NCBI RefSeq assembly: GCF_010672525.1
Contig: NZ_JAAHGH010000029.1
Location: 1-64,000, forward strand
Length of the DNA: 64,000 bases
From: Okeania sp. SIO2B3
Lineage (GTDB): Bacteria; Cyanobacteriota; Cyanobacteriia; Cyanobacteriales; Microcoleaceae
Direction of reading: 5' to 3'
Shown in pieces: positions 9,823 through 38,998 of this stretch; within the stretch, counting starts at the first letter, position 1, and every line of letters starts with the position of its first letter. Under the pieces are notes generated by a model. The model made no database searches. It was given only the letters and a program-made list of their open reading frames with translations, and was not told the origin of the DNA. Both the position numbers and the translations under genes were made by a program.

Positions 9823-9894
9823 GTTTAAAGCTTCGCCCTACAAGGGCGACTTTTTATTTGAGCATGCAAGTGAATTGAATATATGCTAGAGTAT

Positions 9895-10095
9895 TAGTAG
9901 TTGCCGGGGGGCACGCCTCCTCCGGAGGAGCTACGAATTGCGGAAACTCTAAACGGACGTGGAGGGAAGCGTTAGACTACCGCCAAGGAAGCAGCACCCA
10001 GTGTTAGCGACAGCTATGCGAAGCAAAACGTCAACCCGCCGAGGAGCTACGGCTCAGTAGGAATACCCGCGCCTTTAGGTCGGGGAGGATGTCAA
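9895..10095 (+). mobile_element. 3' remnant of an IS605-type tnpB element with omega-RNA-like tail
   Basis: This stretch has no reading frame. It resembles the 3' tail and right end of a tnpB element. It begins with GGCACGCCTCCTCCGGAGGA, paralleled by the tail of the tnpB pseudogene at 15050. It then has a conserved-looking structured part (GCGTTAGACTACCGCCAAGG) and ends in a hairpin (ACCCGCGCCTTTAGGTCGGGG) followed by GGATGTCAA. In IS200/IS605 elements the right-end hairpin also terminates the guide RNA of TnpB, so a residual omega-RNA is possible. The protein part is gone. Confidence 0.5.
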
Positions 10096-10329
10096 GTTAG
10101 TAGAATATCTTGGTAATTGTAAGGTTTATATTAGACTTGTCGCTTTATAACTTAAAAAATCCCCAAAAACCTTGTTCTATAAGGATTGTAGGCATTGCAG
10201 ACTAAAATACCTTGGAATGTTTACTCTGTCTAGGTTGGAGCGATTTTTTCCCTCTATTTAGCGACAACTCTATTGATTCCAAATATCTTTGGCTATGCTA
10301 TTAATTAAGGGTTAAATTTGACGTGACCC

Positions 10330-10364
10330 TTAAGAATTACCTGGATTTATCCAGGAGAGTGTCA
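10330..10364 (+). mobile_element. IS605-like right-end hairpin abutting a glycosyltransferase gene
   Basis: The hairpin CCTGGATTTATCCAGG (10340-10355) is followed by AGAGTGTCAA. The same arrangement closes 29785-29818 and, inverted, 14904-14930. The TCA at 10362-10364 is the complement of the stop codon of the minus-strand glycosyltransferase, so that gene ends inside the element tip. The stretch between 10096 and this hairpin holds no gene. Confidence 0.5.
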
Positions 10365-12671: not shown

Positions 12672-12712
12672 GTAATAACGTTGTTCTTATAACTCTTAGG
12701 ATTATAGATATT

Positions 12713-13642
12713 ATGGTGCAAAAATCACTGATAGTTAAAGCATTAAAAAAACCTCATTTAGCCTGGAAGAAAGGTAAACGTTTTCTCGCACATAATCTTG
12801 AAGATTTTATCAGAATTATTACCCAGCAACACAAACTTTCAGAAATAGTTAATCGAAAGGAAATTCGAGTGGCAGGTATGAAGCGCACTGGGAATCATGC
12901 CATTATTAACTGGGTTAAAAGTCAACAGAATGGTAATGTAGGATTTATTAATAATGTATTAGCTAATCAAAACCCCTACCGTTATAAGTATGAAAATCTT
13001 CAAGATAATTTTCCAGAACATAAATGGGCAATAGAAAATAACCGCCAACAAGCTAAGGGAAATTTTATTAAAAGAGATTGTTTGATTTACAGCTATGAAG
13101 ATTTTCCCCTGGAGCAGATAGCAAGTGATAAATTCGAGCGTAATCACGATCTATACTTAGGAAAAAGTGCTATGAGGTACGATTTACTTATTATTAGAGA
13201 CCCTTTTAATCTGTTTGCAAGTAGACTAAAAGTATCTTCTAAGGCGACACATTTTTTATCAGTAAATTCTCCGAAGAAAACCATGATTGATTTATGGATT
13301 GATTATGCAAAAGAATATTTAGGAGAAACAAATTATCTCAAGCACAACAAAGTTTGTGTCAATTATAATCAATGGTTTGCTGATGTTGAATATCGGCGAA
13401 ACATTGCTGAGAAACTGCAAATAGAATTTTCTGATGCAGGAATAGACCGGGTAACGAGTTTTGGTGAAGGTAGCTCCTTTGAAGGAAAACAATTTAACAA
13501 CAAAGCAACATCAATGGATGTCTTAAACCGATGTCAAAAAGTGGCTGATAATCCTCAATACAAGCAGTTTTTTAATCAGGAAATATTGAAATATTCAGAG
13601 CGAATATTTGGTCATATTCCCGGTACAGAATCTTTAAATTAA
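12713..13642 (+). CDS. sulfotransferase-like P-loop protein (tandem paralogue 2)
   Basis: This 309-aa protein is a tandem duplicate of the preceding gene. The first 60 or so residues and the last 110 or so residues match almost perfectly. The loop here reads IRVAGMKRTGNHAIINWV, closer to a standard sulfotransferase loop because it has Thr instead of Cys. The second motif is YDLLIIRDPFNLFASRLK. The linker before TMIDLWIDYAKEYLGE is about 15 residues shorter than in paralogue 1. The 41-bp spacing suggests one transcript. The two may use different acceptors, since divergence is concentrated in the middle. Confidence 0.65.
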   Translation: MVQKSLIVKALKKPHLAWKKGKRFLAHNLEDFIRIITQQHKLSEIVNRKEIRVAGMKRTGNHAIINWVKSQQNGNVGFINNVLANQNPYRYKYENLQDNFPEHKWAIENNRQQAKGNFIKRDCLIYSYEDFPLEQIASDKFERNHDLYLGKSAMRYDLLIIRDPFNLFASRLKVSSKATHFLSVNSPKKTMIDLWIDYAKEYLGETNYLKHNKVCVNYNQWFADVEYRRNIAEKLQIEFSDAGIDRVTSFGEGSSFEGKQFNNKATSMDVLNRCQKVADNPQYKQFFNQEILKYSERIFGHIPGTESLN

Positions 13643-13733
13643 GTAATAATCAACAGAAAATCAACCATTATTTGTCATTCAATGTCTGGTTAATTATCTA
13701 TGTAAAATTATTTCATAAATTATGTAATTTATC

Positions 13734-14723
13734 ATGACAAAAGTTAGCGTTTGCATTCCCACTTATAACCGAGCGAATTTGCTGCCTTATGCAGTAAATA
13801 GTGTTTTGAATCAAACTTATGATGATTTTGAATTAATCATAACTGATGATGGCTCAAAAGATAATACTGCTGAAGTAGTTAGTCAGTGGAATGACTCTAG
13901 AATTCACTATATTCAGCATCCTCAAAATATTGGACGTAGTAAAAATATGCGTTCTGGTTTTGATGCTGCTAAAGGAGATTATTTCATCAAATTTGATGAT
14001 GATGATGCCCTGACTCCAGAATTTTTAGAGAAAACTGTGGCAGTATTAGATGAGATGCAAAATGTAGATTTTGTCTGTACAAGTCATTGGGTTATTAATG
14101 AAAAAAGTGAACGGGAGGAAGTTGCCACGAAAGAGAATGCAGCTAAGTGGGGAAAGGATAATTTGAAGCAAGGAATTATCCCTAACTTGCTTAAAGAAAC
14201 ATTTCAATACCAAAGTTTGCAGGTGGGTTCAACTTTGTTTCGTCGCTCTTGCCTACAAGAAATTGATTATATGCGGCCTGAAGCAGATGGATGTGAAGAC
14301 TTTGATTTGCTGGTCAGATTAGCAGTAATCGGAAAAGTTGGATATTTTATTCCAGAATATCTTATGGAATATCGTTTTCATAACCGGCAAACCAGTTTAA
14401 AACAAGATATTCACTTTTTATCTGCTAAAACTTTCTGTATTAATAGTTATAAATTTGACGATCAGAAATTGGAAAAATCACGTTTATTTAAGTTAGCAGA
14501 TACGAAACAGAATCTAGGAATTAGATTAATTGAAAAGGGTGAAAGTGTTAAAGGGAGAAAATTATTACAAGAATCAAGCCAAATACTAGGAACTTCATTC
14601 AAGACTAAATTTGCTTTAGTATTATCTTACCTACCCCTAAATTTACGACAATTTGCTTTGCAAAGTTTTAGGAAAATTCGCCCTCAAGACTATGCAGACC
14701 GAGTTAGAAAAGCAACTACTTAA
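13734..14723 (+). CDS. GT2-family glycosyltransferase
   Basis: This 329-aa protein opens with KVSVCIPTYNRANLLPYAV, the standard GT2 N terminus. It has the nucleotide-binding aspartates in LIITDDGSKDNT (D38, D39) and the metal-binding DxD in FIKFDDDDALTP (D88-D91). The acceptor-side region includes a CEDFDLLVRLA segment near residue 187. It lies 91 bp after the sulfotransferase-like pair on the same strand, so the three may be co-transcribed, with a terminator after this gene. It probably adds sugar residues to an extracellular polysaccharide or O-antigen-like chain. Donor and acceptor are unknown. Confidence 0.85.
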   Translation: MTKVSVCIPTYNRANLLPYAVNSVLNQTYDDFELIITDDGSKDNTAEVVSQWNDSRIHYIQHPQNIGRSKNMRSGFDAAKGDYFIKFDDDDALTPEFLEKTVAVLDEMQNVDFVCTSHWVINEKSEREEVATKENAAKWGKDNLKQGIIPNLLKETFQYQSLQVGSTLFRRSCLQEIDYMRPEADGCEDFDLLVRLAVIGKVGYFIPEYLMEYRFHNRQTSLKQDIHFLSAKTFCINSYKFDDQKLEKSRLFKLADTKQNLGIRLIEKGESVKGRKLLQESSQILGTSFKTKFALVLSYLPLNLRQFALQSFRKIRPQDYADRVRKATT

Positions 14724-14798
14724 GTTAGAAATAACTAGGTATAATTTTTTAGCGATCGCCACTTGGTAAATCTTCTTACAAAATAATGATTACTTGAT

Positions 14799-14831
14799 AT
14801 TGGCTTGTTAATAATACAGGCCAATTTTTTT
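14799..14831 (+). terminator. intrinsic terminator after the GT2 gene
   Basis: ATTGGC (14799-14804) pairs with GCCAAT (14820-14825) across a 15-nt loop, and a run of seven T residues follows. It lies about 75 bp past the GT2 stop and would end the 11694-14723 transcript. Confidence 0.6.
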
Positions 14832-14903
14832 GTCCCAAGTCCAGTTAGGACATAATATCAAATCCGGTTAAACAGTTATAGACTGGTTAAGTATTTAGGA
14901 GGA

Positions 14904-15075
14904 TTGACATACTCCCGGCATCAAATCAGAGATTATGGTGCGGGATTCTCATCATTGATGATTCTACGCTCACACAGACAACTTAAATTAGCCATATTGC
15001 TATCGCTAATCCAGAGGTCGGACTCTCCCGTAGCTTTTCCTTCGGAATGCTACGCAAACAGGTTTCCCCCAGGTT
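14904..15075 (-). mobile_element. IS605-type right end of the tnpB element
   Basis: Read on the minus strand, the sequence after the tnpB remnant passes through structured DNA and ends GCCGGGAGTATGTCAATCC, the same form as the right ends at 10095 and 10364. In these elements the right end also carries the 3' part of the TnpB guide RNA, so the flanking bases just below 14904 would be the last guide. A GC-rich module (TTTCCTTCGGAATGCTACGC) is inserted near 15038-15057. Confidence 0.5.
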
Positions 15076-15835
15076 CCGTTAGCGCAGCTCCTCTGTAAGA
15101 GGCGTGCCCCTCGGTATTGTTTACTATTGCTCCTAACATCTCTAAACCTTTAGCCAAAATGTTCCTTGCTGCATTGTGGTCTCTATCAGCAATATAGCCA
15201 CAATGCGGACATTTGTGGGTTCTAACTGATAATGACTTCTTAACAGCTTGACCACAATTTGAACAATTTTGGCTTGTGAAATGTGGAGGTACTGCTATGC
15301 AAGCAATTCCATGCAACTTAGCATAATATTCCAGCCATTCGGTAAACTGAGACCAACTTGCATCAGATATTGATTTGGCTAAATGATGATTTTTAACTAG
15401 ATTAGCAATCTTTAAATCTGCCTTCGGCGCGCCGCTCCGCGTCTACATAAACTACCAAGTCGTTAGATCGGATTAACGCCTGTGCAGTCTTTACTGCATG
15501 GTGCAATACTATTGTCTACTGATTTTGAGATTTGCCCACGCTAATTGAATTCTTGCTTTGTGGTAGTTATTTGACTGAGGTTTCTTACCTTGATCGTGGC
15601 GACTTAATACTCGACCTTGTAGCTTTTTTAGTCGTTTTTCCGACTTTCTCAAATACTTAGGATTTTCTACAGCACTACCATTACTATCAGTATAGAAAGC
15701 GTTTAAACCTAAATCAATTCCTACTACATTGCCTTCAAAATTATGAGTTTCTTTTCTCTCAACATTTACTAAAAATTGACAATAATAGCCATCAGCACGT
15801 CAAATGTCTACTGGATAAACTATTAATATTTGTGT
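15050..15835 (-). pseudogene. degenerate TnpB (IS605 OrfB) gene
   Basis: Three pieces in different frames reconstruct the C-terminal two thirds of a TnpB nuclease. The 5'-most piece reads PVDI-stop-RADGYYCQF and continues to the RuvC-I motif GIDLGLNAF (near 15710) and KYLRKSEKRLKKLQGR. The central piece reads DLKIANLVKNHHLAKSISDA. The last piece (15050-15316) has the zinc ribbon NCSNCG...CPHCG and the RuvC-III motif DRDHNAARN. There is an in-frame TGA near the start, a stop after LKISRQ, and a GC-rich insert of about 21 bp at 15421-15441 that splits the segment V-Y-x-D-L-K. The N-terminal third is missing. It cannot make an active nuclease. Confidence 0.8.
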
Positions 15836-16499: not shown

Positions 16500-17627
16500 C
16501 TAACTAGCAGCAGCGTCAGCTTCTCGAAGAGCTTTGAGAATTTCAGGACGTTTCATACGCGCATAGCCACGAAGTTTCCGCTCTTGGGCAATTTTCTTCA
16601 ATTGTCTGAGTGATTTGGTATCATAATCATCAAGGGGTTCTTCCGGCTCTACAGGAGCTGCTTGAGCTTTAGTCTTTCTAGCAGTAGTTTTTGTTGTACT
16701 CGCCTTAGACCTCGACGATCCTGTAGAACTTGATTTACTCTTGGTTGTTGTCTTACGTGGTGTCTCAGTTTTAGCTGCAACTTCTTCAGTAGAATCGACT
16801 TCTGGTATTGTCTGTAATTGACGCCGAACAGCTGATACTTGAGTTTTTAAGTCATCTTCAATATCTTGAACTGACTGGGAGAACTGATTAATTGTTTTGA
16901 CAATCCCTTCCAGTTTTTTCTCTATTTGTTTATCGAGATCGTCAAGTTGTTTTGATAATAAGTCCACATTCACTCCTGATAAAGAATTAGATGTTGTTTT
17001 TTTTGTTGTTGAACTTGTAATTTTTCTTGCCAATTTTTCTACCTTATCGTTAACTGAATTTTCTAGATTTGTAATCAAATTTTTGAGCTGTTCAATTTGA
17101 ACAACATCCGTAGCTTGATCCTGCAAAGATTTTACTTGTTTTTTCAGTACCTCCTCATTTTTCTTGATAGACTGATCGATTTTTTTGGTGAGAGAATCTA
17201 CTTTTTTATCGAATGATACCTCAAGTTTTTGCATTAGATGCTCAAAGCTTGGTGTTTCTATAACAGGTGGTTGAGTTAATTGCTCTATCTCTGCCACAGC
17301 TATCTTTGCTTGTTCATCTGTCATTTCATAAATCCAGGCCCATAGTTCCTTGATTTCAGCTTCTTTTGCCACTTGATACCAATCAGCACCACGAACAATT
17401 TCGTACTGCTGCTCGGAATCGTCATTATCTGTCAATCTGACAATTAATGGGATTAAGTTACTGCCTTGTTCAGAAAGACTCTTAACTAGGGCTTCATGTC
17501 TTTCAGCAGGAATATCTCTCATCTGAGAGTCTGGTACAGTAATTTTGGATATGGGAGTCAATTCCAAACTTACTGGTTGTACTGGTAAATCTTCTTGTCG
17601 ATTTTTTCGCTTCGTTGATGAAACCAT
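16500..17627 (-). CDS. ParB-like N-terminal domain, coiled coil and Rho_N-like C terminus
   Basis: Numbered from the ATG at 17627 (375 aa), this protein has three parts. Residues 20-100 match the ParB/Srx fold: ITVPDSQMRDIPAERHEAL, then IPLIVRL and YEIVRGADWYQVAKEA. The GERR box that binds CTP in true ParB is replaced by GADW. Residues 120-265 are a long coiled coil with many K/E heptads. A Ser/Thr/Lys-rich linker follows, and the last 35 residues (SLRQLKKIAQERKLRGYARM and on) resemble the Rho_N/SAP-like helical domain that contacts nucleic acid. An upstream TTG at 17660 is possible, but AAGGAAAG sits 10 nt before the ATG, so I prefer it. It faces away from the winged-helix gene across a 757-bp gap. 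A DNA-organising role is inference. Confidence 0.7.
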   Translation of the reverse strand: MVSSTKRKNRQEDLPVQPVSLELTPISKITVPDSQMRDIPAERHEALVKSLSEQGSNLIPLIVRLTDNDDSEQQYEIVRGADWYQVAKEAEIKELWAWIYEMTDEQAKIAVAEIEQLTQPPVIETPSFEHLMQKLEVSFDKKVDSLTKKIDQSIKKNEEVLKKQVKSLQDQATDVVQIEQLKNLITNLENSVNDKVEKLARKITSSTTKKTTSNSLSGVNVDLLSKQLDDLDKQIEKKLEGIVKTINQFSQSVQDIEDDLKTQVSAVRRQLQTIPEVDSTEEVAAKTETPRKTTTKSKSSSTGSSRSKASTTKTTARKTKAQAAPVEPEEPLDDYDTKSLRQLKKIAQERKLRGYARMKRPEILKALREADAAAS

Positions 17628-18384
17628 TTGCTTACAACTTTCCTTGGTTCCTAAAATCAAATAAAGGTTTTAGGCTAATACTGCCTAGATAGCATTCTCC
17701 CGGTGACATTTTCTTTGTGACTCCTCTTTATCACTTTTGATGATAAATTCAAGATTTTTAGCTATTACAGCTATTGGAAAAATCATAATTTCATCACAGT
17801 TTGATAAAATAGGATTAGGTGGTGGGAGTTCGCAAACTGCTTAGTGCTGCTAAACAGGATTTATGATTATTGCATAATCTGGGAAATTATAATTAATTCT
17901 TAGGCTAGAAATTCATACAGCTATAAGTAAGTACGATCTCCAACATTACTTTTTTAACTTGTTGGTTTTTACTATGCCTTAGTGTATTTTTTTTCTTACC
18001 CAGATTTTACTTTCACAAAGTTACTTTAGCATACTTTCATTTACTATGGAAGACAAATAATTATGATCTTAGTAGCAATTGATTTTTTGCTATGAACTCA
18101 GTAAACACTTACTACCTTTTATTGTAGTTATCACTTTACTACTACAATTTGACTAGGTATTACCCACTTAGGACTGTAGGAATGGCGATCGGCTTAAATT
18201 TCTCTGAACTGAATTAACTGATGGCAGTATATTTTCTGGCCATGTCAGGGAGCGATCGCGTAACTCCATTCAAGTGTCTGAAGTTATTTTTTAACTTTTT
18301 TGCGCAAAATAGTCAAGGGGGTACCTATCTGATTAATAATAATATTAATTGGCTGATTTTTGCAAGTGAGGAACAGACGATCGC
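17628..18384. promoter_or_regulatory. divergent intergenic region of the accessory island
   Basis: This 757-bp gap separates two divergently transcribed genes, so it should contain both promoters. I see no family A-E repeat in it, unlike most large gaps in this window. HIP1-like GCGATCG sites stand at about 18185 and 18252. A low-complexity region with 'tttactatgg', 'ttactacctttta' and 'ctttactactac' (18040-18145) has several AGTA/TACT inverted motifs that could be operator-like. This is a suggestion only. Confidence 0.3.
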
Positions 18385-19206
18385 ATGAATGTTAAAGATT
18401 TAAAATTTCTTTTAAAATTACTGAGCTATCAAAATTATCAAGTATCTTTTGCTAAAATTCAACTAGAGTCTGAAATGAAGGTCTCTGAGAAAAATGAAAT
18501 TTGTTCCAGACTTGGCGGTCTAGGGTTGGTAAAATTTACTAGAGAAGTTACAAAAATTAATATAGCACCTCAAGGAAAATCACTCCTCAATCATAAAAAA
18601 GCTGTTAACTCACTCACCACTGAAGAATTGAAAGTGCTCAAAGCTACTGCTAAGGGTGCTATTTCTCCAGCGGAGACTGGTCTTGATACTAGCTATAGGA
18701 ATGCTGTTATCAAAGACTTACTAGAGCAAGGTTTGATTAAAGTTATCGATCAAAAAATCAAGGATGTCTGGTTGACAGAAAAAGGAAAGCAATTTTTGTG
18801 CCAAGAATATTCTTCTCGCAGCACTGCAAAAGAGATATCCTTAAAAATGTTGAGCGACTATCTTGATTTAATGCGTACCAACTGTTCCCTTTACTTCCCT
18901 AAGCAAGAAAAACAGCAGTTTTCCCAAATGCTTGACAAACCTACTGACTCTCAGGTTTTAGCTGTGATTCGAGATTTAGACCAAAATCTAGGTACAAATA
19001 ACTATCTACCCATTTTTCATCTGCGACACAAATTACAACCTCCTTTATCTAGAGAAGAACTAAATCTAGCACTTTACCGTCTAGAAAAAAGTGACCAAAT
19101 AGAATTAAGTTCCTTACAAGAAGTCAGCTCCTACACTCCAGAAGAATTTGAAGCAGGTATACCTCAAGATATTGGTGGCAGTTTATTTTTTATCATTCCC
19201 TACTAA
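18385..19206 (+). CDS. multi-winged-helix protein of the accessory island
   Basis: The 273-aa protein has no transmembrane segment and no catalytic motif that I recognise. Its pattern is that of repeated winged helices: residues 1-70 (SRLGGLGLVKFTREVTKINI, then APQGKSLL), residues 78-140 (RNAVIKDLLEQGLIKVIDQK, then WLTEKGKQFL) and a third in residues 190-255 (LREELNLALYRLEKSDQIEL-like). Each has a 'turn, helix, then two strands' signature with a terminal '(P/E)xGK' wing. It resembles small DNA-binding adaptor subunits. It lies 297 bp before the ATPase gene on the same strand, which suggests joint function. Family unknown. Confidence 0.5.
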   Translation: MNVKDLKFLLKLLSYQNYQVSFAKIQLESEMKVSEKNEICSRLGGLGLVKFTREVTKINIAPQGKSLLNHKKAVNSLTTEELKVLKATAKGAISPAETGLDTSYRNAVIKDLLEQGLIKVIDQKIKDVWLTEKGKQFLCQEYSSRSTAKEISLKMLSDYLDLMRTNCSLYFPKQEKQQFSQMLDKPTDSQVLAVIRDLDQNLGTNNYLPIFHLRHKLQPPLSREELNLALYRLEKSDQIELSSLQEVSSYTPEEFEAGIPQDIGGSLFFIIPY

Positions 19207-19503
19207 ATTTTTCGGCGTTGGTGATTTGAGGTATGATGTCCTGTGTCCCCTCCGGGGGAGCTACGAATTGCGGATAAGAGCGCGAACAAAAAACTTTCTC
19301 CTTGTGCTACTCTTTCTTCTTTTTTCTTCCCTCCTGACTCTTGAGTCCCCCTCCTGGGAGGGACGGCGTGGGTTGGGTGCGCGGGTGGGTTGACTCCTAA
19401 ATAATTAAGATTAATATCATACACGCGCTTGAGCAACACCAATTTTCCTATATCTGCTATCGTAATTCTCTAACCCTACCAAAAAATATTACCAGTTTAT
19501 ACT
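19207..19503. other. gap with GC-rich palindromic module
   Basis: It contains CCCCTCCGGGGGAGCTACGA (about 19248-19267) followed by ATTGCGG, a copy of the module seen at 9911-9940 and 8699, then pyrimidine-rich 'cttcttttttcttccctcctgactc' text. It separates the winged-helix and ATPase genes, probably by later insertion. Confidence 0.5.
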
Positions 19504-21501
19504 ATGGCATCTATAGATCGGATTATTCAAAGAGAAGTTAATCCTTTTGACCCAGTCAGTCTTTATACTATTAATTTTTGGCAGGAGCAACAAAATCCGA
19601 CCCTAAATGTTGATTCTATCCATCAAAATATTATTTCTGATATAGAAACAGTGCTAGAACAGGTTGCCCAGGAACATCGTCCCCGAACATTGATACTGAC
19701 TGGTGATTCTGGTTCTGGTAAAAGTTATCTTTTGGGGAGAATCAAAAAATTATTCAACACAAAAGCCTTTTTTGTCTATATTGATCCCTGGCCTGATAGT
19801 GATTACATTTGGCGTCATATTTTGCGTCAAACAGTAGATTCTCTGATGAAAACTCCGGAGGGTCAAACAGATTCTCAGTTGTTACTATGGTTAAAGGGTC
19901 TATTGGCTTTCCAGAATGGTAGTTTACTAAAAAAAATTATTGGTGAAAGAAGAGTATTTATTAGAAGTCTCAAAGGTATTTATGCTTCTGGAATTTATAA
20001 TCCTAATGATTTTTTCAGCGCTCTTTATTATCTATTAAATCCAAATTACATATCGATTGCCTGTGAGTGGTTACGGGGGGATGATTTAGACGAAGATGAT
20101 TTAAAATATTTAGGGATTAAAGGTAGTATAGACTCTGAAGATTCTGCTCAGAAAATTATGACTAATTTGGGTATTATTTCGGCTGCATCTCAACCTATTG
20201 TTTTATGTTTTGATAATCTTGATAATATTCCTCGGTTATTAAATGGTTCTTTGGATTTACAAGCTTTATTTAATATTAATTCTAGTATTCATACTCATTA
20301 TCCACAAAATTTCCTGATAATTATTAGTATTATTACGAGTACCTGGAAACAAAATTCTGAATTGATTCAACCTGCAGATAAAGCTAGAGTAAATGCTGGA
20401 TATTTTCATTTAAAGCCGATTACTTTAGCACAAGGAGAATGTTTATTAGCAGCTCGTTTGAGTCCTTTGCATTCTTTGGCTAAACCCCAGCCTAAATCAC
20501 CTATATTTCCTTTGTCAACAGAAATATTAGCAGAAAAGTTTCCTAGAGGTAAAACTCTACCTCGCAATATCTTAGAATTGGGACGTAAGGAATACGATCA
20601 ATATAAAAACAAATTATTAGATGAGCCAGGAAATGTCCAAACTTCAACATCAGAAACAAAATTAGAAACTTTTAAATTAATTTGGCAAGATAAATATCAA
20701 AAAGCTCAGAAAAAAATCAATAAAATTACCGATCTAGCAGCACCAGAATTGATTAGAATGCTACAAGAAGTATTAAATGCTGTAAGATTTAAAGGTGTGA
20801 AAACTAAATTATTAAGTGGGAAATATGCTAGTCATTCTTTGAGTTATAAACAACAAAATAATGAGGAAATAATTGGTGTGATTTGGACAGAAGACCCAAA
20901 TATGAATAGTTTTTATAATACAATGAGTGCTTGTCAGAAAGTGGCGGATAAAAGGTTATGTCAAAGCTTATATTTAGTGAGAGCTGCTGAGGTGGGAAAT
21001 GCCAAAAATATGAGCAATAAAATATATAGAAAAATTTTTAAAGGTAGATTGAAAAATCTTCATATTCAACCAAACCTGGAATCTGTACATTTTTTGGCTA
21101 CATATCATAGTTTAATGAATGCTGCTCTCGCTAATGAATTAATGATAGAAGGTAAGATTATTAGTCTCAAAGAGTTAGAAGAAATAATTTGTGATTCACA
21201 AATTTTAAACAACTGTAGCTTATTACAAGATTTATCTGTAGTCGATCCAGTAGATAATCAAGAACAGCAAAGTGATTCAGATTTAGATGAGGTGAAGGAT
21301 TTTGTGGTAAATTTAATTAAAACACAATGTTTTATGGAGCGTAAAAACATCATTGAAAATACACTAAATAAATTTATTAACATAGAGCAGTCAAAAATTT
21401 ATAAAATTATTGAGGAACTTGAAGGAGAACAGAAAATAAAAAATATTACTCCTACATCAAAATTAGAACGACAATTAGTTTGTTTTATTCCTAGTTACTA
21501 A
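19504..21501 (+). CDS. P-loop ATPase of the accessory island
   Basis: This 665-aa protein begins with a AAA/STAND-type NTPase. Walker A is TLILTGDSGSGKSYLL with K73 and S74. Walker B is PIVLCFDNLDNIP with D237 and D240, followed by a possible sensor strand FLIIISIITST (about 264-274). The central part (about 390-560) is not recognised, with YKQQNNEEIIGVIW and VADKRLCQSLYLVRAAE. The last 75 residues (FVVNLIKTQCFMERKNIIEN and on) look like a C-terminal winged helix. The layout 'ATPase followed by winged helix' recalls Orc1/Cdc6-like and defence-system ATPases. I cannot name the family. It lies between a winged-helix protein and a Cas4-like protein on the same strand. Confidence 0.65.
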   Translation: MASIDRIIQREVNPFDPVSLYTINFWQEQQNPTLNVDSIHQNIISDIETVLEQVAQEHRPRTLILTGDSGSGKSYLLGRIKKLFNTKAFFVYIDPWPDSDYIWRHILRQTVDSLMKTPEGQTDSQLLLWLKGLLAFQNGSLLKKIIGERRVFIRSLKGIYASGIYNPNDFFSALYYLLNPNYISIACEWLRGDDLDEDDLKYLGIKGSIDSEDSAQKIMTNLGIISAASQPIVLCFDNLDNIPRLLNGSLDLQALFNINSSIHTHYPQNFLIIISIITSTWKQNSELIQPADKARVNAGYFHLKPITLAQGECLLAARLSPLHSLAKPQPKSPIFPLSTEILAEKFPRGKTLPRNILELGRKEYDQYKNKLLDEPGNVQTSTSETKLETFKLIWQDKYQKAQKKINKITDLAAPELIRMLQEVLNAVRFKGVKTKLLSGKYASHSLSYKQQNNEEIIGVIWTEDPNMNSFYNTMSACQKVADKRLCQSLYLVRAAEVGNAKNMSNKIYRKIFKGRLKNLHIQPNLESVHFLATYHSLMNAALANELMIEGKIISLKELEEIICDSQILNNCSLLQDLSVVDPVDNQEQQSDSDLDEVKDFVVNLIKTQCFMERKNIIENTLNKFINIEQSKIYKIIEELEGEQKIKNITPTSKLERQLVCFIPSY

Positions 21502-21523
21502 TGAATATATAATAAAAGTTAGG

Positions 21524-22138
21524 GTAAGCATTTCCTGCAGAATGCTGCGAAAACAGCTAGCTCGCAGTCAGCTATTCCTTTGGAATGCGCTCCCATTCAC
21601 CAATTAGTAATGAATAATTAGGGTTTGCGTATGGAAAGTCTTTTTGTTCTTTGTAGGAGACAGGAGACAGGAGAAATGGGAATGTAGAGGAGGTAGGAGT
21701 AAGAATTTTACCAAGATTATTCTGCCCAACTATGTGCATAAAATACGCTCCTTTTTAAGCGTGAAGAGCTGAAAAGCAGGTACTTTTTAAATGCCCCAAA
21801 AAGGCACTTGTCTTTATCTGTCAATGCTTTTAGATTTAATCAGCAAACCCTAATTACTTCTAAGGTTTAGTTTCTCAGGTTTAGTCCGGGAACTTTGGCA
21901 GTAACTTTTTATTCTTTCTCAATTTCAAAGGTTACTTTTACCAAAAAATTGTGGTCTAAATTCTCCCTAAGGGGATAAAAAAAAGAGAATATTCGCCAAG
22001 GTCAAGCCTCCTTATTGCAGAGGTACTGATAACTGAAATGACCTTCCCCAAAATTAATAGCTGAAGTCCGCAGTTCTGATCCAGGAAGCTAGCTAATAGC
22101 TGACGGCTTTTTTGCAGCATTCAGCAGGAAATGCTTGC
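21524..22138. repeat. family-B composite element with perfect 8-bp target duplication
   Basis: It is bounded by AAGTTAGG at 21516-21523 and 22139-22146, a perfect 8-bp duplication. The ends GTAAGCATTTCC and GGAAATGCTTGC are inverse. The 615-bp interior carries a complete family-C element (21615-21856), GC-rich modules near 21533-21590 and 22110-22131, and a block (AACTTTTTATTCTTTCTCAA, about 21903) found inverted in the B copy at 55626. It lies between the ATPase and the Cas4-like gene, so it may have split an operon. Confidence 0.75.
21615..21856. repeat. family-C element nested in a family-B element
   Basis: The ends TAATTAGGGTTTGC and GCAAACCCTAATTA are perfect 14-bp inverted repeats. The interior has AGGAGACAGGAGACAGGAG and other blocks shared with 31671-31949 and 58183-58653. 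It has no significant reading frame. Confidence 0.75.
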
Positions 22139-22242
22139 AAGTTAGGAGCGATAAATCAAAATCAATATTTAGTAGATAAAACTGATAATTTTTGAAAAAT
22201 TTTTAGCGATATTAACTACTTAAAAACCTGGAAAATTTGTCA

Positions 22243-23163
22243 ATGCCAATAATTAATAAACCTCAACTACAGTCTCCCCCATTTAGTGTTACCAATGTTA
22301 AAGTTGCTTTTGAGTGCCCACGTTTATTTTATCTGAAACAACGTTTTGGGGGCGAGCATCTGCTTTTGTCAAAAGATTATATCCAGGAAATTGATAGTGC
22401 TTTTCTTGACTTAGCTAATCAGTTGATGAATATGATTAGACAGGAAGCTAAGATTCAAGCTTTGTTTGAGGGACAGTTTGAGGAGTTGATGGTAGAGGCG
22501 ATCGCTCATCAAATACAACAATTATTTTATGAGTCGATTTTCTTTCCTTATTTAGACACAATAATTACAAAAGATTCTAGTCTAGCAACAGCGTTTTATC
22601 AAATTTGGCAGCTATTAACTAAACTAATTTTAAATATATCTAAAATTATTGTTAAAAATCGACGTTACTGTCAGGAAAATGTTGTAGTTCGTCGCACATT
22701 AATTACAAGGGAAATACTACTAGATTATACTTTTAAAATACCAGATGGTGACAATCAAAAGTTAACGGGAAAAGTTAATAATTTAATTTTTGATTTTGAA
22801 TCTCGTCGTTTATGTGTGGTTAATTATCAGACTTATGAAACTGCAGAAGTATCCTCTCAGTTAATGGCAATTGCTCTCTATAGTTTTTTGCTGAAGCAAA
22901 AGAAAAAAGTACCTGTTGATGCGGTTGTTTATTGGGTTTTGCCTGAGTTGGGAGAGTATTATTATTCGTGGGAAAAGTTAGAGAATGTGGTGGAGAATTT
23001 AGTTCCTGCTAAGTTACAGGAGATGCGAGAGTGGTTAAGGTGGGACGAGTCTCAACCTAACCCACCTCCACGGACGGAGAAAGAGTATTTATGTGATATT
23101 TGTCCTCAGAGGGAAAAGTGTCAGAGTTTTTTTGATGGGGGTGATTCAACAATTAATAATTAA
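22243..23163 (+). CDS. Cas4-like protein, apparently without catalytic residues
   Basis: The 306-aa protein (ATG at 22243) has the layout of Cas4 and AddB-type iron-sulfur nucleases. One early cysteine (C25 in AFECPRLFYLK) and three late ones (C284, C287, C293 in YLCDICPQREKC) would hold a 4Fe-4S cluster. The PD-(D/E)xK core should be GxxD...ExK and then Q. Here the first motif reads GKVNN (N178), the second VVNYQT (N193, Q195), and only the late glutamine (Q205 in SSQLMAIALYSF) is kept. D, E and K all look replaced, so I expect no nuclease activity. A DNA-binding structural role is possible. The preceding TTG (22237) is an alternative start. Confidence 0.65.
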   Translation: MPIINKPQLQSPPFSVTNVKVAFECPRLFYLKQRFGGEHLLLSKDYIQEIDSAFLDLANQLMNMIRQEAKIQALFEGQFEELMVEAIAHQIQQLFYESIFFPYLDTIITKDSSLATAFYQIWQLLTKLILNISKIIVKNRRYCQENVVVRRTLITREILLDYTFKIPDGDNQKLTGKVNNLIFDFESRRLCVVNYQTYETAEVSSQLMAIALYSFLLKQKKKVPVDAVVYWVLPELGEYYYSWEKLENVVENLVPAKLQEMREWLRWDESQPNPPPRTEKEYLCDICPQREKCQSFFDGGDSTINN

Positions 23164-23466: not shown

Positions 23467-24390
23467 CTATTCTGGTATATATGCTATTTTTCTGAGTTTT
23501 TCGTAGGTTGTTTTCCCAAAACCAATTCCCTTTTTAGTTTGTTTTTTAAGATTTTCCCAAGTTAAGTTTTCTCCAGACTGTTTCCAGTGTTTAATTGCTT
23601 CCCATGTAGCATTTATCATTGTAGTTGTACTTTTAACTCTTGCAAAAGCTTGCTGAATATCTTCTTTTGTTTCTACTGTTAATAAATTAACTTTTTGTAG
23701 CTGATTAGATTCATTTTTTATAGCTTCAAGTTGTCTATTTAGAGCTATTTGAGTTTTTGTCAACAAAGATAAAGCTTCTTGCTTGGAAAGATTACTGATT
23801 TTTTGACGTATAACTTCTAATTGGTTGTTCAGAATTTCCTCAATTTCTGCACTCTTTGTTTTGGGGACTAACTGGTCAATTTTACTTTCGATTTTCTCCA
23901 GTTTTTCCTCTATGTTCTTATTTTCTAGAGGCTGAGAATAAGTAGGAGATGCTATAGTTTTTTGACCTAATTTTGTTATTATTGGTTGCAATTTTTTGTC
24001 TAGTAACTTATCTAACTCACTTAAATTTATTGTACCTTCTTGTATAACTGTAGATTTTTCAGGTACAGGAGAAATACTACTTTTTTTCCTGAACATTTCC
24101 ACCTGTTCTTCTAACACTTCTGTCTTATCACCTTCAATGATAAATGCTCCTATTCTTTCACCATCACGAGGATTTATTTCTTTTGCTCTGACTGCTGCAT
24201 AATACTCAAAATGTCCATCAACTACTTCGTAAGATTCCCAACCAATAGTACGCAAAACTAGAGGTTTAATTGTACCTTCAGCTTTTAAAATTAATTGAGC
24301 AGCTTGTTCTAAATCTGACTCTAAAAATTCGGAACGAGGCACATTGGAAGTAATTTCTTTGACAAGTACAAATTCTGGAGATAATAACAT
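23467..24390 (-). CDS. ParB-like coiled-coil partner of the nuclease-ParA protein
   Basis: The 307-aa protein starts with a ParB/Srx-like domain (about 1-90): LVKEITSNVPRSEF, IKPLVLRTIGWESYEVVDG and GHFEYYAAVRA. The latter holds the place of the GERRxRA box, but the arginines are absent, so CTP binding as in true ParB is doubtful. Residues 120-265 are predominantly coiled coil with regular Leu/Ile heptads. The C terminus (NLKKQTKKGIGFGKTTYEKL) may be a small basic DNA-contact motif. The start codon overlaps the stop of the upstream gene in TAATG, so the two are translationally coupled. Its architecture parallels that of the protein at 16500-17627. A ParB-like role with ParA is likely from context, not shown. 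Confidence 0.7.
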   Translation of the reverse strand: MLLSPEFVLVKEITSNVPRSEFLESDLEQAAQLILKAEGTIKPLVLRTIGWESYEVVDGHFEYYAAVRAKEINPRDGERIGAFIIEGDKTEVLEEQVEMFRKKSSISPVPEKSTVIQEGTINLSELDKLLDKKLQPIITKLGQKTIASPTYSQPLENKNIEEKLEKIESKIDQLVPKTKSAEIEEILNNQLEVIRQKISNLSKQEALSLLTKTQIALNRQLEAIKNESNQLQKVNLLTVETKEDIQQAFARVKSTTTMINATWEAIKHWKQSGENLTWENLKKQTKKGIGFGKTTYEKLRKIAYIPE

Positions 24391-25907
24391 TATTTTAGTC
24401 CGATTTTATTTAATACTTCGTTTGCTAATGACTCAAATTCTTGGCAAGAAGAAGAATCTGGTGCATAGTCAAATATAGAGCTAGGTTCGGGTATTTCCAA
24501 TTCTCCTACTTGGCGAGTTTTATCAATACATTTAGCAAGTTCTTCTCTTTGAAATATAACTGTTTCCATAACATTAAGCTCGTAACGCTGGGAAACTGTT
24601 TGGATTTGTTTTGGTAATGTATATTGTACAAATCTAGAATTAGGATTAATTTTACAAGGTAAGACACCTAATATTTCTATATCTGGTTTATTCATCACTT
24701 GCCTAAAACGATTAATCTCTTCGTGAAGATAATTTTTCACATTTGATAAACCTTGATTTGCAAATGGTTTTAAGTCTGAAGGAATAATCAAATAGTTAGC
24801 ACTAACTAGAGGAATAAACGCATATAAATTGAAAGATGGTGGTGTATCGATCAGAACAACATCATATTTTCCTTCTACTGGTTTCAGTTTCTTTATTAGT
24901 GAAGTTAAACTACTTCTAAGGTTATTAAATTCAGTTTCTGCTTGCATTAAACTTATGTGAGAAGGAATCACATGAACTTCAGGATCATTAAACCTAGAAA
25001 CTCTAGCTACTTCTGGAATACTAGAATGTTCATCGTATCTCAACACATGATAAATATAGGAGTCTTTTATATCATCAAATTGCTCATCATTAAATTTAAT
25101 TAGACCTGTAGCAAATGTTGTATTTGCCTGACTATCTAAGTCTATAACCAAAACTCTATAACCTCTTTTACTTAAGGCAGCAGCTAAATTAACGACAGTT
25201 GTTGTCTTTCCTACTCCGCCTTTATTATGATAGACAGCAATTACTTTCATGGGATTTCTCCTACTTTGATTTATTTGATTTGAATCTATTTCAGGGTTGA
25301 CTAAAATCCTCTGATTTTTCGGCGTATTACTAACAATTTTTCTTGTTTCAGATTGAGGAGCGATCGCCTGATTTTCATTTTCTTCTTTTCCAGATTTTCT
25401 TGTTTCAGAAGTTGACTCCACAGTATTTTCATTAACCTCTTCGTTCATAATTTTGGTTGTCTGGGAATTCCGATTTTGCCCTAAATAATCTCGACCTATT
25501 AATGCTTTTATTTCTTCTATTTTTTCATCAACCTGACTCCCCCAACACTTAAAAATCAACTCAATCTCATTTTCTTCTCTTTGATAAATCCTGATTTCTT
25601 TAGCGTTAGTTAATAAACCATATTTCACATTCATACTTGTTAAATAACGCTTGAGTTTTCGTAGATGGCGGTCTAAATTTTGTCTTGGATGTTTTGCCTC
25701 CATTACTAACGCTAAAGGAGAATCACCATCCAAACGAAAAGGTAGTTCCTGGGCAGCAAATGATAAAAAATCTAAACGGATACTACCCAAGGTTACTTCT
25801 TGATGCCAATGTTCGATACCGTATCCCAATTTTGGCAATAGATAACTAACAATTAGTTTGCTTTCTACTTCACTTTCATTGCGACATAAATCTGGATTAA
25901 AACTCAA
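24390..25907 (-). CDS. HsdR_N-type nuclease domain fused to a ParA ATPase
   Basis: This 505-aa protein joins two domains. Residues 1-135 match the HsdR N-terminal PD-(D/E)xK fold of type I restriction enzymes: an early ESEVESKL helix, D46 in IRLDFLSF, and E70-x-K72 in LALVMEAKHPR, so the catalytic set is present. A 75-residue polar linker follows. From residue 220 the sequence is a complete ParA: deviant Walker A KGGVGKTT (229-236), the A' motif DLDSQANTT with D258, and Walker B YDVVLIDTPPS with D354. Translation starts at TTG 25907 with AAGGAAGAA upstream. Residue 220 is itself an ATG with a strong internal ribosome binding site. The ParB-like gene follows with a 1-bp overlap. I do not know this fusion as a described system. 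A partition function combined with DNA cleavage or DNA end binding is inference. Confidence 0.8.
   Translation of the reverse strand: MSFNPDLCRNESEVESKLIVSYLLPKLGYGIEHWHQEVTLGSIRLDFLSFAAQELPFRLDGDSPLALVMEAKHPRQNLDRHLRKLKRYLTSMNVKYGLLTNAKEIRIYQREENEIELIFKCWGSQVDEKIEEIKALIGRDYLGQNRNSQTTKIMNEEVNENTVESTSETRKSGKEENENQAIAPQSETRKIVSNTPKNQRILVNPEIDSNQINQSRRNPMKVIAVYHNKGGVGKTTTVVNLAAALSKRGYRVLVIDLDSQANTTFATGLIKFNDEQFDDIKDSYIYHVLRYDEHSSIPEVARVSRFNDPEVHVIPSHISLMQAETEFNNLRSSLTSLIKKLKPVEGKYDVVLIDTPPSFNLYAFIPLVSANYLIIPSDLKPFANQGLSNVKNYLHEEINRFRQVMNKPDIEILGVLPCKINPNSRFVQYTLPKQIQTVSQRYELNVMETVIFQREELAKCIDKTRQVGELEIPEPSSIFDYAPDSSSCQEFESLANEVLNKIGLK
25248..25262 (-). promoter_or_regulatory. internal ribosome binding site before the ParA domain
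   Basis: On the minus strand AGGAGA (25257-25262) lies 6 nt before the ATG at 25250-25248, which is in frame and codes Met220, exactly where the ParA domain begins. This is a stronger start signal than the TTG at 25907, so a free 286-aa ParA may be made in addition to the fusion. Confidence 0.6.
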
Positions 25908-26457
25908 GGTTATTCTTCCTTAATTTTAAATTTTTCCCTTGATTCCTAATTGGATTTTATCAAATAGGTTAATTGATGTCTATCTTGACAATTTTGTCTG
26001 ATTATATTAATTTTTTTCTCAGTATTTTTACGGTGTTTTTGATTAATAATCTTTTGGTAGGAGTTATTTTTTTTAGTAGTAATAGCAATTTTAAAAAAGT
26101 ATTTAGACAAGGAAAAGTAAGAAGCAAAAAGTAATAAACTATATCATGTCCGCCCTTGATCATTTGTGTAAACTCAAGGGTGAATATCTACAGGAAATTT
26201 AGGTTTTTTCAAACTTTTAAGCCTTCTTCCTTCTTCCCTCTTCCTTCTTCCTTACCTTCGCGCTTACAATACCGATGCTACCGGAAATGATATGAGATAT
26301 TTTCTAGCTCAATTAGACCGAGAAGTTTTGACAAACACAGAGCAATTATCATCAAAATTATCTATTATCTGTACCTAACATTCATTGCCTCTGGTCTCAG
26401 GTAAACTTTAGATTAAAGCATCGGTATTTCTCAAATAAAAAATGACAATTTATTGAT
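25908..26457. other. gene-free stretch upstream of the nuclease-ParA operon
   Basis: AT-rich. It presumably holds the promoter of the minus-strand operon that starts at 25907. Around 26145 and 26263-26300 it contains TATCATGTCCG-like and 'cttcttcc' repeats. I see no reading frame, and no iterated short direct repeats that would mark a clear parS or iteron array. Confidence 0.35.
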
Positions 26458-36280: not shown

Positions 36281-38998
36281 ATGGGATTTCTTTTTTTTCA
36301 CTCAGCACAAACTGATAAGAATGCGAATTATTACAAAGGCAAGCTCTTTGAAGACCTTCTTGCTAAATATTTAGAAGCTACTGGTTACGATATTAAAACT
36401 AGAATAAAAAAAGAGGGACTAGAATATGATTTAGAAGGAATTCATCGAGTAAGTAGACATGAAGTAATTGGTGAAGCAAAAGCATTTAGTAAAAGAATAG
36501 AAGCTGAAAAGTTTAATGCTTTTTGTGGAAAGTTTATCCCTTTGTGGCTAGAAAATAAAAGTCGTCTTGGTCTTTTTATTTCTACAGAAACACTGACACC
36601 AGACGCTGAAAATTTTTATCAAGAAAAGTTAGTAAAACAAGAAATAAATGTCGAAGTATTTTCTGGGGAAGAATTACTTGAAAAAATTAGCCAAGAATTA
36701 AAATTACCAAATCCAGAATCCTTGAAAAAGCAGATTCAGTCTAGGAGTTTAAATCCTTTATCTTATCATCTGCTCACTACAGATCATGGTATATTTTTTG
36801 TATATATAATAGGATCATCTGAATCTGCTACTCCATCATCATTTGCTATTTTTCGAGATGATAGTAGTTGGCTTAACGATAAAAATTATCTTGACTTAGT
36901 TAAACAAAAAGTTCAAGAATTACAAGGTTTAGAACCAATTATAGGAGAGAAGTCATTCCATCATTCTACTATTAATCGGATAATAAAGCAGGGTTTAGAA
37001 GTAGGTAAAGGTTGGTTTGACTATAAAGCTCCTGCAGCTCCAGAATATTTTATTGGTAGACATGAATTAATTGAAAAGATAAAAAAGCATATTAGTTTAG
37101 GGGAAGAACCACAAAACACTTTGCAAGTCAAAAGTCGTTCTGGTGTAGGAAAAAGTTCTTTGCTCGCAAATCTAAATAGGTGTTTTAAAAAGGAAGGATA
37201 TTTGACAGAGTTACATGATGCAAGAGATGTAAAAAATACTTTTGACCTTTATTATTTGGTTCAAAGATTTACAAAATCAAAATGGCAAGCATCTGACCAC
37301 AAAGGGATTGAAAAACAACTACAAGAGTTAAGAAATAGACTCAAGAAAAATCAACGTGGGATTTTTATGGTCGATCAGTTTGAATCAATGTTTAATAATG
37401 ATGAATTATTTAATAGCTATGAAAGTTTAATTTCTATTTTTAATGATTTCAAACCAAAGCTTTTTATTGTGATAGGACGGAAAGATGACTTACTAACTTA
37501 CCATGATAATAAAATATCTCTTGATAAAATCAACCAACTTTCTAAAATTTATCCGCTGCATGACTTTTCTGTAGTAGAGGCAAAAGAACTAATAAATAAA
37601 ATTAATGAAACATCAATCAAAAAAATTAACAATGAGGTGAAGTCATTTATATATGAATTTTCTAGTGGCTTTCCTTGGTTAATTAAGCGAACTATAACTC
37701 ATTTAATTTCCTATTATAAAAAACATCAACAAATCCAAGGAGACTTATTTGATACTGGTCTAGGTTTAAAAGAGCTTTTTGATGAAGAACTAGAAGAATT
37801 GAATCAATTAGAAAAAGGTTTTCTTTTCAGAATAGCACCTAAACTACCTGCAACTGCTTCTGAGCTTCATAAAGAATATGACGAAGATCCATTACTACCA
37901 AATATTCTTTATAAATTAACAAAAAGTAAAATATTAAGATTGTCTGGAGATACATACGATACATATAATGATGTCTTCAAAGAGTATCTAGGCGGAAAGC
38001 TACCAAAAATTTATGAAGCATTTACATACCGTCTTCACCCAAAAGGAGTTCTTGATTTTTTCTATAATTTAATTCAAAGTCATAAGGCTCAGTATAGCGA
38101 ATTACGTTTTTCAAATGAGCAAATTAAAGACTTCTACTTAAAACAAAAACCTCAAGGTAATAATCACACCGTTAATCATCTTAAATACGATTTAAAACAT
38201 ATAGGTTTGCTGGAACAAGATGGTGATGAATTAGTAATTTATCATAGTATTATCGATATTTATCAGCGTGGTGAATTAGGTCAGTATGTGCAACATAAGT
38301 TAAAAAATAATGCTCTTATTAAAGAGTTGTTAGATAAAGTTAAACAAGAAGGTGATTTTTCATATTCAAATTTACCAAAATACTTAAAAGATAAACTTAT
38401 TTTTAGAGAAGCTGGACAAGATACTTGGTCTTCTCATGCAAAAAATCTGAAAGCATGGTTAACAGATTTTATGATTTTGATAGAAGACAAAAAAAGCAAG
38501 AGATTTATTTTACCCACAGCCAGATATAGTAGTGAGGAAATCGCAGAACATTTAGCTAATATTGAGGAGATGTTTACTGATAGAAAAAACAATACCTCTC
38601 AAAGAGAAATTTTCCTACCTAAAGTCAATTGGGAATATATAGAAAAATTAGCTGAATATTTGTTAGAGGATAAACAAATACCTCAAAATAAAGAAGGTAA
38701 AAAATTGCAGCAAGCCAAAAATGACTTAACTGCTATATCTTTAGTAAATAGTCAAACTAATAAATTAAATTTTGACTCTATCGAAGAGCTTAAAAATAAA
38801 ATTAAAGGTACGTTAGAGAAAACTCCTTACAATCGAGTATGGAAAGCAGCAGTTAGAGGTGAAAAACCTATACAAGTTATGCGACATCTTCTAAAAAATA
38901 AATACAGTGATAGTACGGTAAAAAGTCGTTTAAGTGTAATGCTGAACTGGGGACAAAATCTAGAAATAATACCAAAAAAAAGATATCGTCATGGGTAA
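36281..38998 (+). CDS. Mrr-like nuclease/P-loop NTPase protein, probable defence gene
   Basis: This 905-aa protein combines an N-terminal restriction-endonuclease-like domain with an NTPase. Residues 15-135 have the PD-(D/E)xK pattern of Mrr/Cap4-type nucleases: GKLFEDLLAKYL (E24), EYDLEG (D50) and VIGEAKAF (E65-x-K67). After a linker comes EYFIGRHELIEKI (255-267), the usual entry to STAND-type NTPases, with Walker A SRSGVGKSSLL (K291) and Walker B GIFMVDQFESM (D365). Residues about 560-905 look helical, with winged-helix-like parts, and have a basic end (KRYRHG). The layout 'nuclease, STAND NTPase, C-terminal sensor' is that of several antiphage proteins such as the Avs type. No partner gene adjoins it. 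Confidence 0.7.
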   Translation: MGFLFFHSAQTDKNANYYKGKLFEDLLAKYLEATGYDIKTRIKKEGLEYDLEGIHRVSRHEVIGEAKAFSKRIEAEKFNAFCGKFIPLWLENKSRLGLFISTETLTPDAENFYQEKLVKQEINVEVFSGEELLEKISQELKLPNPESLKKQIQSRSLNPLSYHLLTTDHGIFFVYIIGSSESATPSSFAIFRDDSSWLNDKNYLDLVKQKVQELQGLEPIIGEKSFHHSTINRIIKQGLEVGKGWFDYKAPAAPEYFIGRHELIEKIKKHISLGEEPQNTLQVKSRSGVGKSSLLANLNRCFKKEGYLTELHDARDVKNTFDLYYLVQRFTKSKWQASDHKGIEKQLQELRNRLKKNQRGIFMVDQFESMFNNDELFNSYESLISIFNDFKPKLFIVIGRKDDLLTYHDNKISLDKINQLSKIYPLHDFSVVEAKELINKINETSIKKINNEVKSFIYEFSSGFPWLIKRTITHLISYYKKHQQIQGDLFDTGLGLKELFDEELEELNQLEKGFLFRIAPKLPATASELHKEYDEDPLLPNILYKLTKSKILRLSGDTYDTYNDVFKEYLGGKLPKIYEAFTYRLHPKGVLDFFYNLIQSHKAQYSELRFSNEQIKDFYLKQKPQGNNHTVNHLKYDLKHIGLLEQDGDELVIYHSIIDIYQRGELGQYVQHKLKNNALIKELLDKVKQEGDFSYSNLPKYLKDKLIFREAGQDTWSSHAKNLKAWLTDFMILIEDKKSKRFILPTARYSSEEIAEHLANIEEMFTDRKNNTSQREIFLPKVNWEYIEKLAEYLLEDKQIPQNKEGKKLQQAKNDLTAISLVNSQTNKLNFDSIEELKNKIKGTLEKTPYNRVWKAAVRGEKPIQVMRHLLKNKYSDSTVKSRLSVMLNWGQNLEIIPKKRYRHG

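Follow-up and report, generated by a model that had tools for sequence, protein, structure and literature searches.

ParA/MinD ATPases have a known role as motors for positioning. In ParABS systems (Soj/Spo0J, ParA/ParB) the partner is ParB, the GERR arginine box of which binds cytidine triphosphate, and in the McdAB system, which positions carboxysomes in cyanobacteria, a ParA-type ATPase is paired with a small coiled-coil partner. A deviant Walker A motif and conserved aspartate motifs are the named motifs of ParA. Excerpts of published work state that ParB contacts ParA through an unstructured N-terminal motif (PMC12462528), that ParA partners generally make this contact through a charged N terminus (PMC10241942) and that ParB/Srx restriction proteins, such as GmrSD, were assembled from domains of distant lineages (PMC4619093). 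Here we describe a two-gene unit in a 64,000-nucleotide (nt) stretch of DNA from Okeania sp. SIO2B3 (the whole stretch is referred to as the window), which is part of the 72,384-base contig NZ_JAAHGH010000029.1 (C172) of a 10.0-Mb draft genome. Gene A fuses a putative HSDR_N-type nuclease domain to a ParA ATPase, and gene B encodes a degenerate ParB-like partner. The unit is present in many cyanobacterial chromosomes and points to an undescribed DNA-guarding system, as suggested by a motor–partner part that swaps between strains, whereas far less change is seen in the nuclease domain and in the genes around it.

The two halves of A are recognizable from profiles and motifs (Table 1). With Pfam, the whole protein matched HSDR_N_2 over residues 16–112 (E = 5.4 × 10^-5, 23.7 bits against a cut-off of 25 bits; 26.4 bits, above the cut-off, in another scan) and AAA_31 over residues 219–399 (E = 1.3 × 10^-51). 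Among 23 relatives scanned, all 23 matched HSDR_N_2 and 18 matched HSDR_N (E ≤ 0.01). Residues D46, E70 and K72 are jointly kept in 54 of 55 full-length A proteins, and KGGVGKTT, D256, D258, Q260 and D354 in 100% of these 55. The only protein that lacks the triad, L037 (L063 in the neighbourhood set), carries another N-terminal domain: a C-terminal portion of an AAA_12 helicase (E = 2.5 × 10^-43) takes the place of the nuclease and is fused to ParA. Distant relatives that are 25–28% identical (subfamily 2; L086–L090) keep both the nuclease and the ParA parts. Because the triad is so widely kept and subfamily 2 retains both parts, the nuclease motif is, as far as alignments can tell, under constraint, and A may cut DNA. 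The assignment of this domain to the PD-(D/E)xK fold draws on sequence profiles and motif conservation; a profile search of the PDB with the nuclease domain gave two matches, neither of which was a nuclease. When the sequence of A was compared with the PDB, Soj/ParA-type chains matched best (E = 10^-22 to 10^-15), and the Foldseek matches listed for a model of A are ParA-type ATPases. The closest of the named relatives found comes from Okeania sp. SIO2C9, with 90% identity across A.

B resembles ParB at its N terminus and departs from it elsewhere. ParB_N scored 26.1 bits on the window B (Pfam cut-off, 26.3 bits). A profile was built from 22 B-type proteins, of which 21 are partners and one is encoded by the second ParB-like gene of the window. 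It found ParB, Spo0J and Noc chains in the PDB at E values of 1.3 × 10^-7 to 1.9 × 10^-4, with some matches among them that look like chance, coiled-coil ones included, and ParB_N matched 20 of the 22 proteins; on the basis of these profile matches, the N-terminal domain (B_N) is classed as ParB/Srx-like. Foldseek matches of the B model to Noc, ParB and SbnI were weak (best E = 0.021), and the predicted helices that follow B_N were read as a coiled coil. None of 62 aligned B rows, up to 7 of which are gapped at this place, has the arginine pair of the GERR box, and two (L092 and L093) have a single arginine there. The Srx-like domain is preceded by 5–11 residues in 56 of 67 rows, by none in 3 and by 15–39 in 8 (a few of these rows are non-B genes). 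Judged by this length alone, B mostly appears to lack the usual N-terminal ParA-binding stretch. No helix-turn-helix family matched the window B, and none was among 25 of the 47 families listed for the 22 B-type proteins.

The C-terminal tails of B are modular. Profiles, seeded with some of the same sequences, sorted 68 rows into helix-hairpin-helix (HhH; 40), WENL (14; a label coined here for a tail that has no Pfam match above the cut-off in the window B) and SAP-like types (7, one of which belongs to the second ParB-like gene of the window), and the 7 unclassed rows are fragments or wrong genes. Pfam tails among the 22 B-type proteins were HHH_3 in 5, Rho_N in 3 and SAP in 2. As WENL and SAP-like tails are common to the partners of subfamilies 1 and 2, tails move between the two.

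The stop codon of A and the start codon of B overlap by one base (TAATG). We compared 68 distinct loci; A is at least 440 amino acids long in 54, and the other 14 are shorter because they are ParA-only, broken or cut by a contig end. A same-strand gene follows at −74 to +33 nt in 53 of the 54 full-length loci, and in 49 of these 53 it is a B match (E = 10^-3). Of the other four next genes, one (L038) is the front half of a B that is broken, and three (L086, L087 and L090) are partners of subfamily 2 without a blastp link to B; at L064 a piece of B is located further off. Overlapping reading frames at L082 and L083, considered as separate nuclease and ParA genes, look instead like disrupted frames. 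A was matched in 62 of 386 sampled Cyanobacteriota genomes (E ≤ 10^-30; ParA-only and distant forms included) and B in 56 (E = 10^-4). Both were found in 55 genomes, A only in 7 and B only in 1 (G060, tail match only). In the host family, 50 of 61 genomes have an A match. Recurrence of the fused gene and its partner across families excludes a chance origin of the pattern. Broken A–B copies in some relatives (drafts and metagenome-assembled genomes (MAGs)) suggest that the unit is dispensable.

These comparisons bear out the observation in the original prediction and part of its interpretation. Made from this one sequence, it had proposed an HsdR_N–ParA fusion with intact motifs, coupled through TAATG to a ParB/Srx-like gene with GHFE in place of GERR, and had asked whether this partner always adjoins the fusion. 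It had also connected the fusion with no described system, and we found no description of it in the open-licence PMC literature; subscription papers are mostly outside this scope and may hold one. Exchangeable tails of B, ParA-only and helicase–ParA versions and mosaic evolution go beyond that single-sequence view.

Mosaic evolution is the main new result: aligned sequences indicate that the nuclease domain (N) follows the upstream flank, and that ParA and B_N tend to be replaced together. We correlated distances across 47 A–B pairs, retained from 69 distinct A proteins after removal of 14 shorter than 440 amino acids, subfamily 2, L037, L064 and L038 (broken B). ParA and B_N correlated strongly (r = 0.82), and N and ParA less so (r = 0.51). 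Given N, the partial correlation of ParA and B_N was 0.65 (0 of 500 permutations), whereas that of N and ParA given B_N was −0.12, although N and ParA form one polypeptide. Linkage between N and B_N is not wholly broken, because their partial correlation given ParA was 0.54. Within one genus (g2; 24 genomes that are kin and not independent data points), N correlated with the desaturase flank (r = 0.62) and hardly with ParA (r = 0.16; 61 of 2,000 permutations as high), and ParA correlated with B_N (r = 0.73; 0 of 2,000 permutations). The tail of B was nearly free (r = 0.22 with ParA and 0.32 with B_N).

Individual genomes display the same pattern in their DNA. Between the window and L045 (Okeania sp. 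SIO1I7, a MAG), identity is 98% in the desaturase gene, 97% in the PDDEXK_1 and KAP genes and 99% in the winged helix-turn-helix (wHTH) gene; it falls to 88% in the nuclease domain and 67% in ParA, B_N is matched over only 22% and the remainder of B is unmatched. The control L038 is 86–98% identical to the window across ten stretches, with 89% in the nuclease domain. L043, also a MAG, has 70% identity in ParA, 79% over 13% of B_N and 82% over 78% of the middle of B. In genus g19, which belongs to another family, the outer flanks of G376, G167 and G068 are 95–96% identical on both sides, the nearest upstream gene 87–90% and the nuclease domain 90–93%, and ParA is 77% or 63–64% and B_N 68% or 58–61% identical. 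The lower ParA and B_N values are those of G068 against the other two genomes, and in these same comparisons N is 90–91% and the nearest upstream gene 87–89% identical. ParA is not simply the faster-evolving part, because pairs with the same allele have similar identities in N and ParA (89% and 93% for L038; 85% and 84% for L039). The ParA tree splits members of the host family apart. Chimeric assembly is possible for the MAGs; the location of G068, G125 and G167 on contigs of 6.5–7.1 Mb weighs against it.

Table 1. Positions of the A–B genes, their parts and associated features in the window
Feature	Position	Strand	Basis
Gene A, HSDR_N-type nuclease–ParA fusion	24390..25907	minus	Open reading frame, 505 amino acids, TTG start
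Nuclease domain of A, about residues 1–145 (triad D46, E70, K72)	25473..25907	minus	Pfam, alignment
Linker of A, residues 146–218, variable	Between nuclease and ParA parts	minus	Alignment
ParA/AAA_31 ATPase domain of A, residues 219–505, KGGVGKTT	24390..25253	minus	Pfam, alignment
Gene B, ParB_N/Srx-like domain, coiled coil and tail	23467..24390	minus	Open reading frame, 307 amino acids, ATG start
Parts of B: ParB_N/Srx-like, about residues 8–100 (GHFE for GERR); coiled coil; WENL-type tail, about residues 230–307		minus	
Candidate sigma-70-like promoter, TAGACA-17-TAAAAT	25954..25982	minus	Score 10/12
Second ParB_N-like gene, 386 amino acids, SAP/Rho_N tail	16500..17660	minus	Pfam, profiles

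A physical specificity pair would be expected to be replaced as a unit, as ParA and B_N tend to be; that N stays with the local lineage hints at a generic nuclease domain. Recurrent replacement at one fixed location resembles, by analogy, the exchange of specificity in conflict systems; the replacement of HsdS alleles in restriction systems follows a comparable logic with parts that are not comparable. From the architecture, conserved motifs, operon coupling, modular tails and cassette replacement seen in the sequences, we infer a mechanism that comprises DNA cutting, nucleoid binding, contact between ParA and B_N, targeting and a role in defence. The ParA domain of A would bind nucleoid DNA under the control of ATP, carrying the PD-(D/E)xK nuclease at its N terminus. 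B would be a ParB-derived adaptor, dimerized by its coiled coil, that contacts ParA through its ParB-like N-terminal domain. It would touch DNA or other cargo with its C-terminal module, of the HhH, SAP-like or WENL type, and would bring or activate the nuclease at the site to which this tail binds, incoming DNA being one example. We tentatively interpret A–B as a chromosomal, recombining DNA-guarding system, in which a ParA-borne nuclease is aimed by a ParB-derived adaptor and which evolves like a conflict system. With more reserve, the unit might represent a new cyanobacterial class of genome guardians, in which a nuclease patrols the nucleoid on a ParA motor, ParA and the N-terminal domain of the adaptor form an exchangeable specificity cassette and the adaptor tail is a second exchangeable part.

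Several observations weigh against a DNA-guarding system. In an AlphaFold model of A built from seven sequences (mean predicted local distance difference test score (pLDDT) of 51.9, and about 30–50 over residues 1–100), the PD-(D/E)xK fold was not seen and residues 1–100 were mostly helix, the model being poor. Several lineages (L029, L030, L084, L092 and L093) have ParA and B without the nuclease domain. High recombination alone could produce a mosaic. In L045 the nuclease domain lies below its flanks (88% compared with 97–99%), at about the level that it has in the control. Pairing of ParA and B_N is not strict: G376 and G125 share 77% identity in ParA and 91% in B_N, and G068 and G042 share 87% in ParA and 65% in B_N. 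Wide presence in the host family at a conserved place appears to be unlike most mobile defence systems, and the surroundings, as annotated, form no evident defence island. Five window proteins run against PADLOC 2.0.0 (2023) gave fragment matches only, the best of which was to PDC-M28B over 51 residues of ParA.

Widespread in one family and found there at a conserved place, the unit could also be a system for positioning or partition. ParA and B would then move or space a cargo, be it a chromosome region, an element or a protein body, across the nucleoid, with the nuclease as an accessory that holds or trims DNA. The ParA motifs are fully kept, ParA–B is the constant core of a unit from which several lineages have no nuclease domain, and partners of ParA/MinD ATPases are very diverse in general, according to excerpts of PMC10241942. 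However, the triad is kept wherever the nuclease domain is present among the 55 full-length proteins, and B has neither the arginine box nor, in most cases, the N-terminal stretch that binds ParA. The position of A–B relative to dnaN is random (mean distance of 0.247 of the contig; Kolmogorov–Smirnov P = 0.64; 1 of 14 genomes within 0.05), as measured in 14 of 16 genomes on contigs assumed to be circular and with dnaN standing in for the origin. The host genome encodes one canonical ParB elsewhere (C241, 112.7 bits), and a search for shared repeats (an iteron or parS array) found none common to six upstream regions, although single sites would escape this search. We regard positioning as a serious, if somewhat unlikely, alternative.

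Partition of the plasmid type, which the original prediction had also offered, is weakened by the absence of a shared upstream array, by the random position relative to dnaN and by searches of mobile elements. The fusion was not covered at 80% of the query in the best 5,000 plasmid records, in a further 3,124 plasmid records or in 142 phage records. In viral contigs, 25 loci match A from residue 188 on only, and another viral search gave none. A plasmid or phage origin of A–B was rejected, as these plasmid, phage and viral records yielded ParA proteins only. ParA and B do resemble partition proteins and some copies are broken, as would be expected if the chromosome had captured a plasmid ParAB remnant that was then joined by accident to an unrelated nuclease gene next to it. 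Conservation makes such an accident very improbable: the fusion occurs in many families with an all but invariant triad, and no plasmid record reported covers 80% of it. The suggestion of the original prediction that the pair cuts or binds ends of foreign DNA as it is positioned along the nucleoid may still hold; cassette replacement favours a role in conflict, and the surroundings do not.

Most of the neighbours examined serve metabolism or transport, and a few encode nucleases or NTPases. In the host family, A lies downstream of a fatty acid desaturase gene and of a gene for a pyridoxal-phosphate-dependent enzyme, which we read as threonine-synthase-like. In other families the upstream genes encode a divergent 294-amino-acid Soj-like ParA, glycosyltransferases and what we read as an isoleucyl-tRNA synthetase. 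The 294-amino-acid ParA, present at several loci, was considered as McdA and rejected, as no McdA structure matched at E = 10^-10. Ten further neighbour proteins include transporters, peptidases, a glycosidase, an exonuclease and a Uma2 nuclease.

Such housekeeping-like surroundings could also fit a factor of DNA repair or recombination, in which B recognizes junctions or breaks through its HhH or SAP-like tail and ParA delivers an end-processing nuclease or, in one lineage, a helicase part. The tails themselves, the AAA_12 part fused to ParA in L063 and an exonuclease-like gene that adjoins B on the opposite strand in L056 (Pfam), which has a member of its cluster in L052, point in this direction. 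Replacement of ParA and B between near-identical strains would be odd for a repair factor, however, and 324 of the 386 genomes have no A match at E = 10^-30; a role in repair seems distinctly unlikely.

The candidate promoter upstream of A (Table 1) is the top of 17 scored sites in the region, in which shuffled sequence averages 12.0 sites, and its stretch aligns in most of five relatives; it may be used as a promoter. The second ParB_N-like gene is of the partner type of subfamily-2 fusions, yet has no such ParA adjoining it. Relatives are found in 10 of 29 neighbourhoods, and in 9 of the 29 such a gene lies downstream of B on the same strand; the gene is possibly a further part of the system. 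At L063 (positions 9774–11345 and 13732–15152), the helicase-part–ParA fusion and its B lie near a second, frame-disrupted HsdR_N–ParA copy and a ParB2-like gene, an arrangement that reads as two related systems adjoining each other.

Other genes were noted in passing. Window positions 18385–23163 (plus strand) encode a wHTH protein, a KAP-type ATPase and a PDDEXK_1 protein with weak Cas4 matches. KAP, wHTH and PDDEXK_1 genes occur near A–B, on the opposite strand, in 6, 6 and 5 of 29 neighbourhoods, respectively, and are not counted as parts. Uma2 genes are common in cyanobacteria; at L046 a Uma2-type putative nuclease gene (12403–13236) directly follows the second ParB-like gene, and its cluster is present in 4 of 29 neighbourhoods. 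Also on the plus strand of the window are a 905-amino-acid protein with a STAND NTPase domain (36281–38998; nSTAND1, E = 9.6 × 10^-10), adjacent proteins of 325 and 309 amino acids (11694–12671 and 12713–13642) that have no Pfam match at 0.01 and lie amid glycosyltransferase genes, and a 745-amino-acid protein with a long pentapeptide-repeat region (1986–4223).

A ParA that bears a nuclease motif, paired with a degenerate ParB, would show that the motor known for positioning can also deliver enzymes to DNA. The natural swaps are ready-made chimeras, and predict that ParA and the N-terminal domain of B must match, with the nuclease domain interchangeable. If A–B is a defence system, it is one that is widespread in a cyanobacterial family and unmatched, beyond fragments, by the 2023 PADLOC catalogue.

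Compared with known systems, A shares with HsdR of type I restriction the HSDR_N and HSDR_N_2 families and the D...ExK triad; its nuclease is joined to ParA and not to a helicase motor, and no HsdM or HsdS family was found among 23 scanned window proteins out of 37 open reading frames of at least 100 amino acids (limits of 1, 0.01 and 10^-6). McdA structures (6non, 6noo and 6nop) match A at E values of 7.5 × 10^-8 to 10^-6, far below Soj/ParA, and, unlike in McdAB, the B of the pair is ParB-like. With GmrSD the unit shares the use of a ParB/Srx fold in DNA conflict; GmrSD differs in pairing this fold with an HNH domain, and the excerpts of PMC4619093 describe no ParA for it. By its domains and motifs, A–B is not a canonical ParABS system: A carries a nuclease domain, B has HhH, SAP-like or WENL tails in place of a detectable helix-turn-helix, has no arginine box and in most cases no N-terminal stretch for binding ParA, and the locus is not near dnaN and has no shared parS-like array that we could see. 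What it has in common with ParABS is a ParA ATPase with the deviant Walker A motif and an adjoining ParB/Srx-like partner. In the PDB, Soj/ParA chains best match A in sequence and its ParA part in fold, and ParB, Spo0J and Noc chains best match B.

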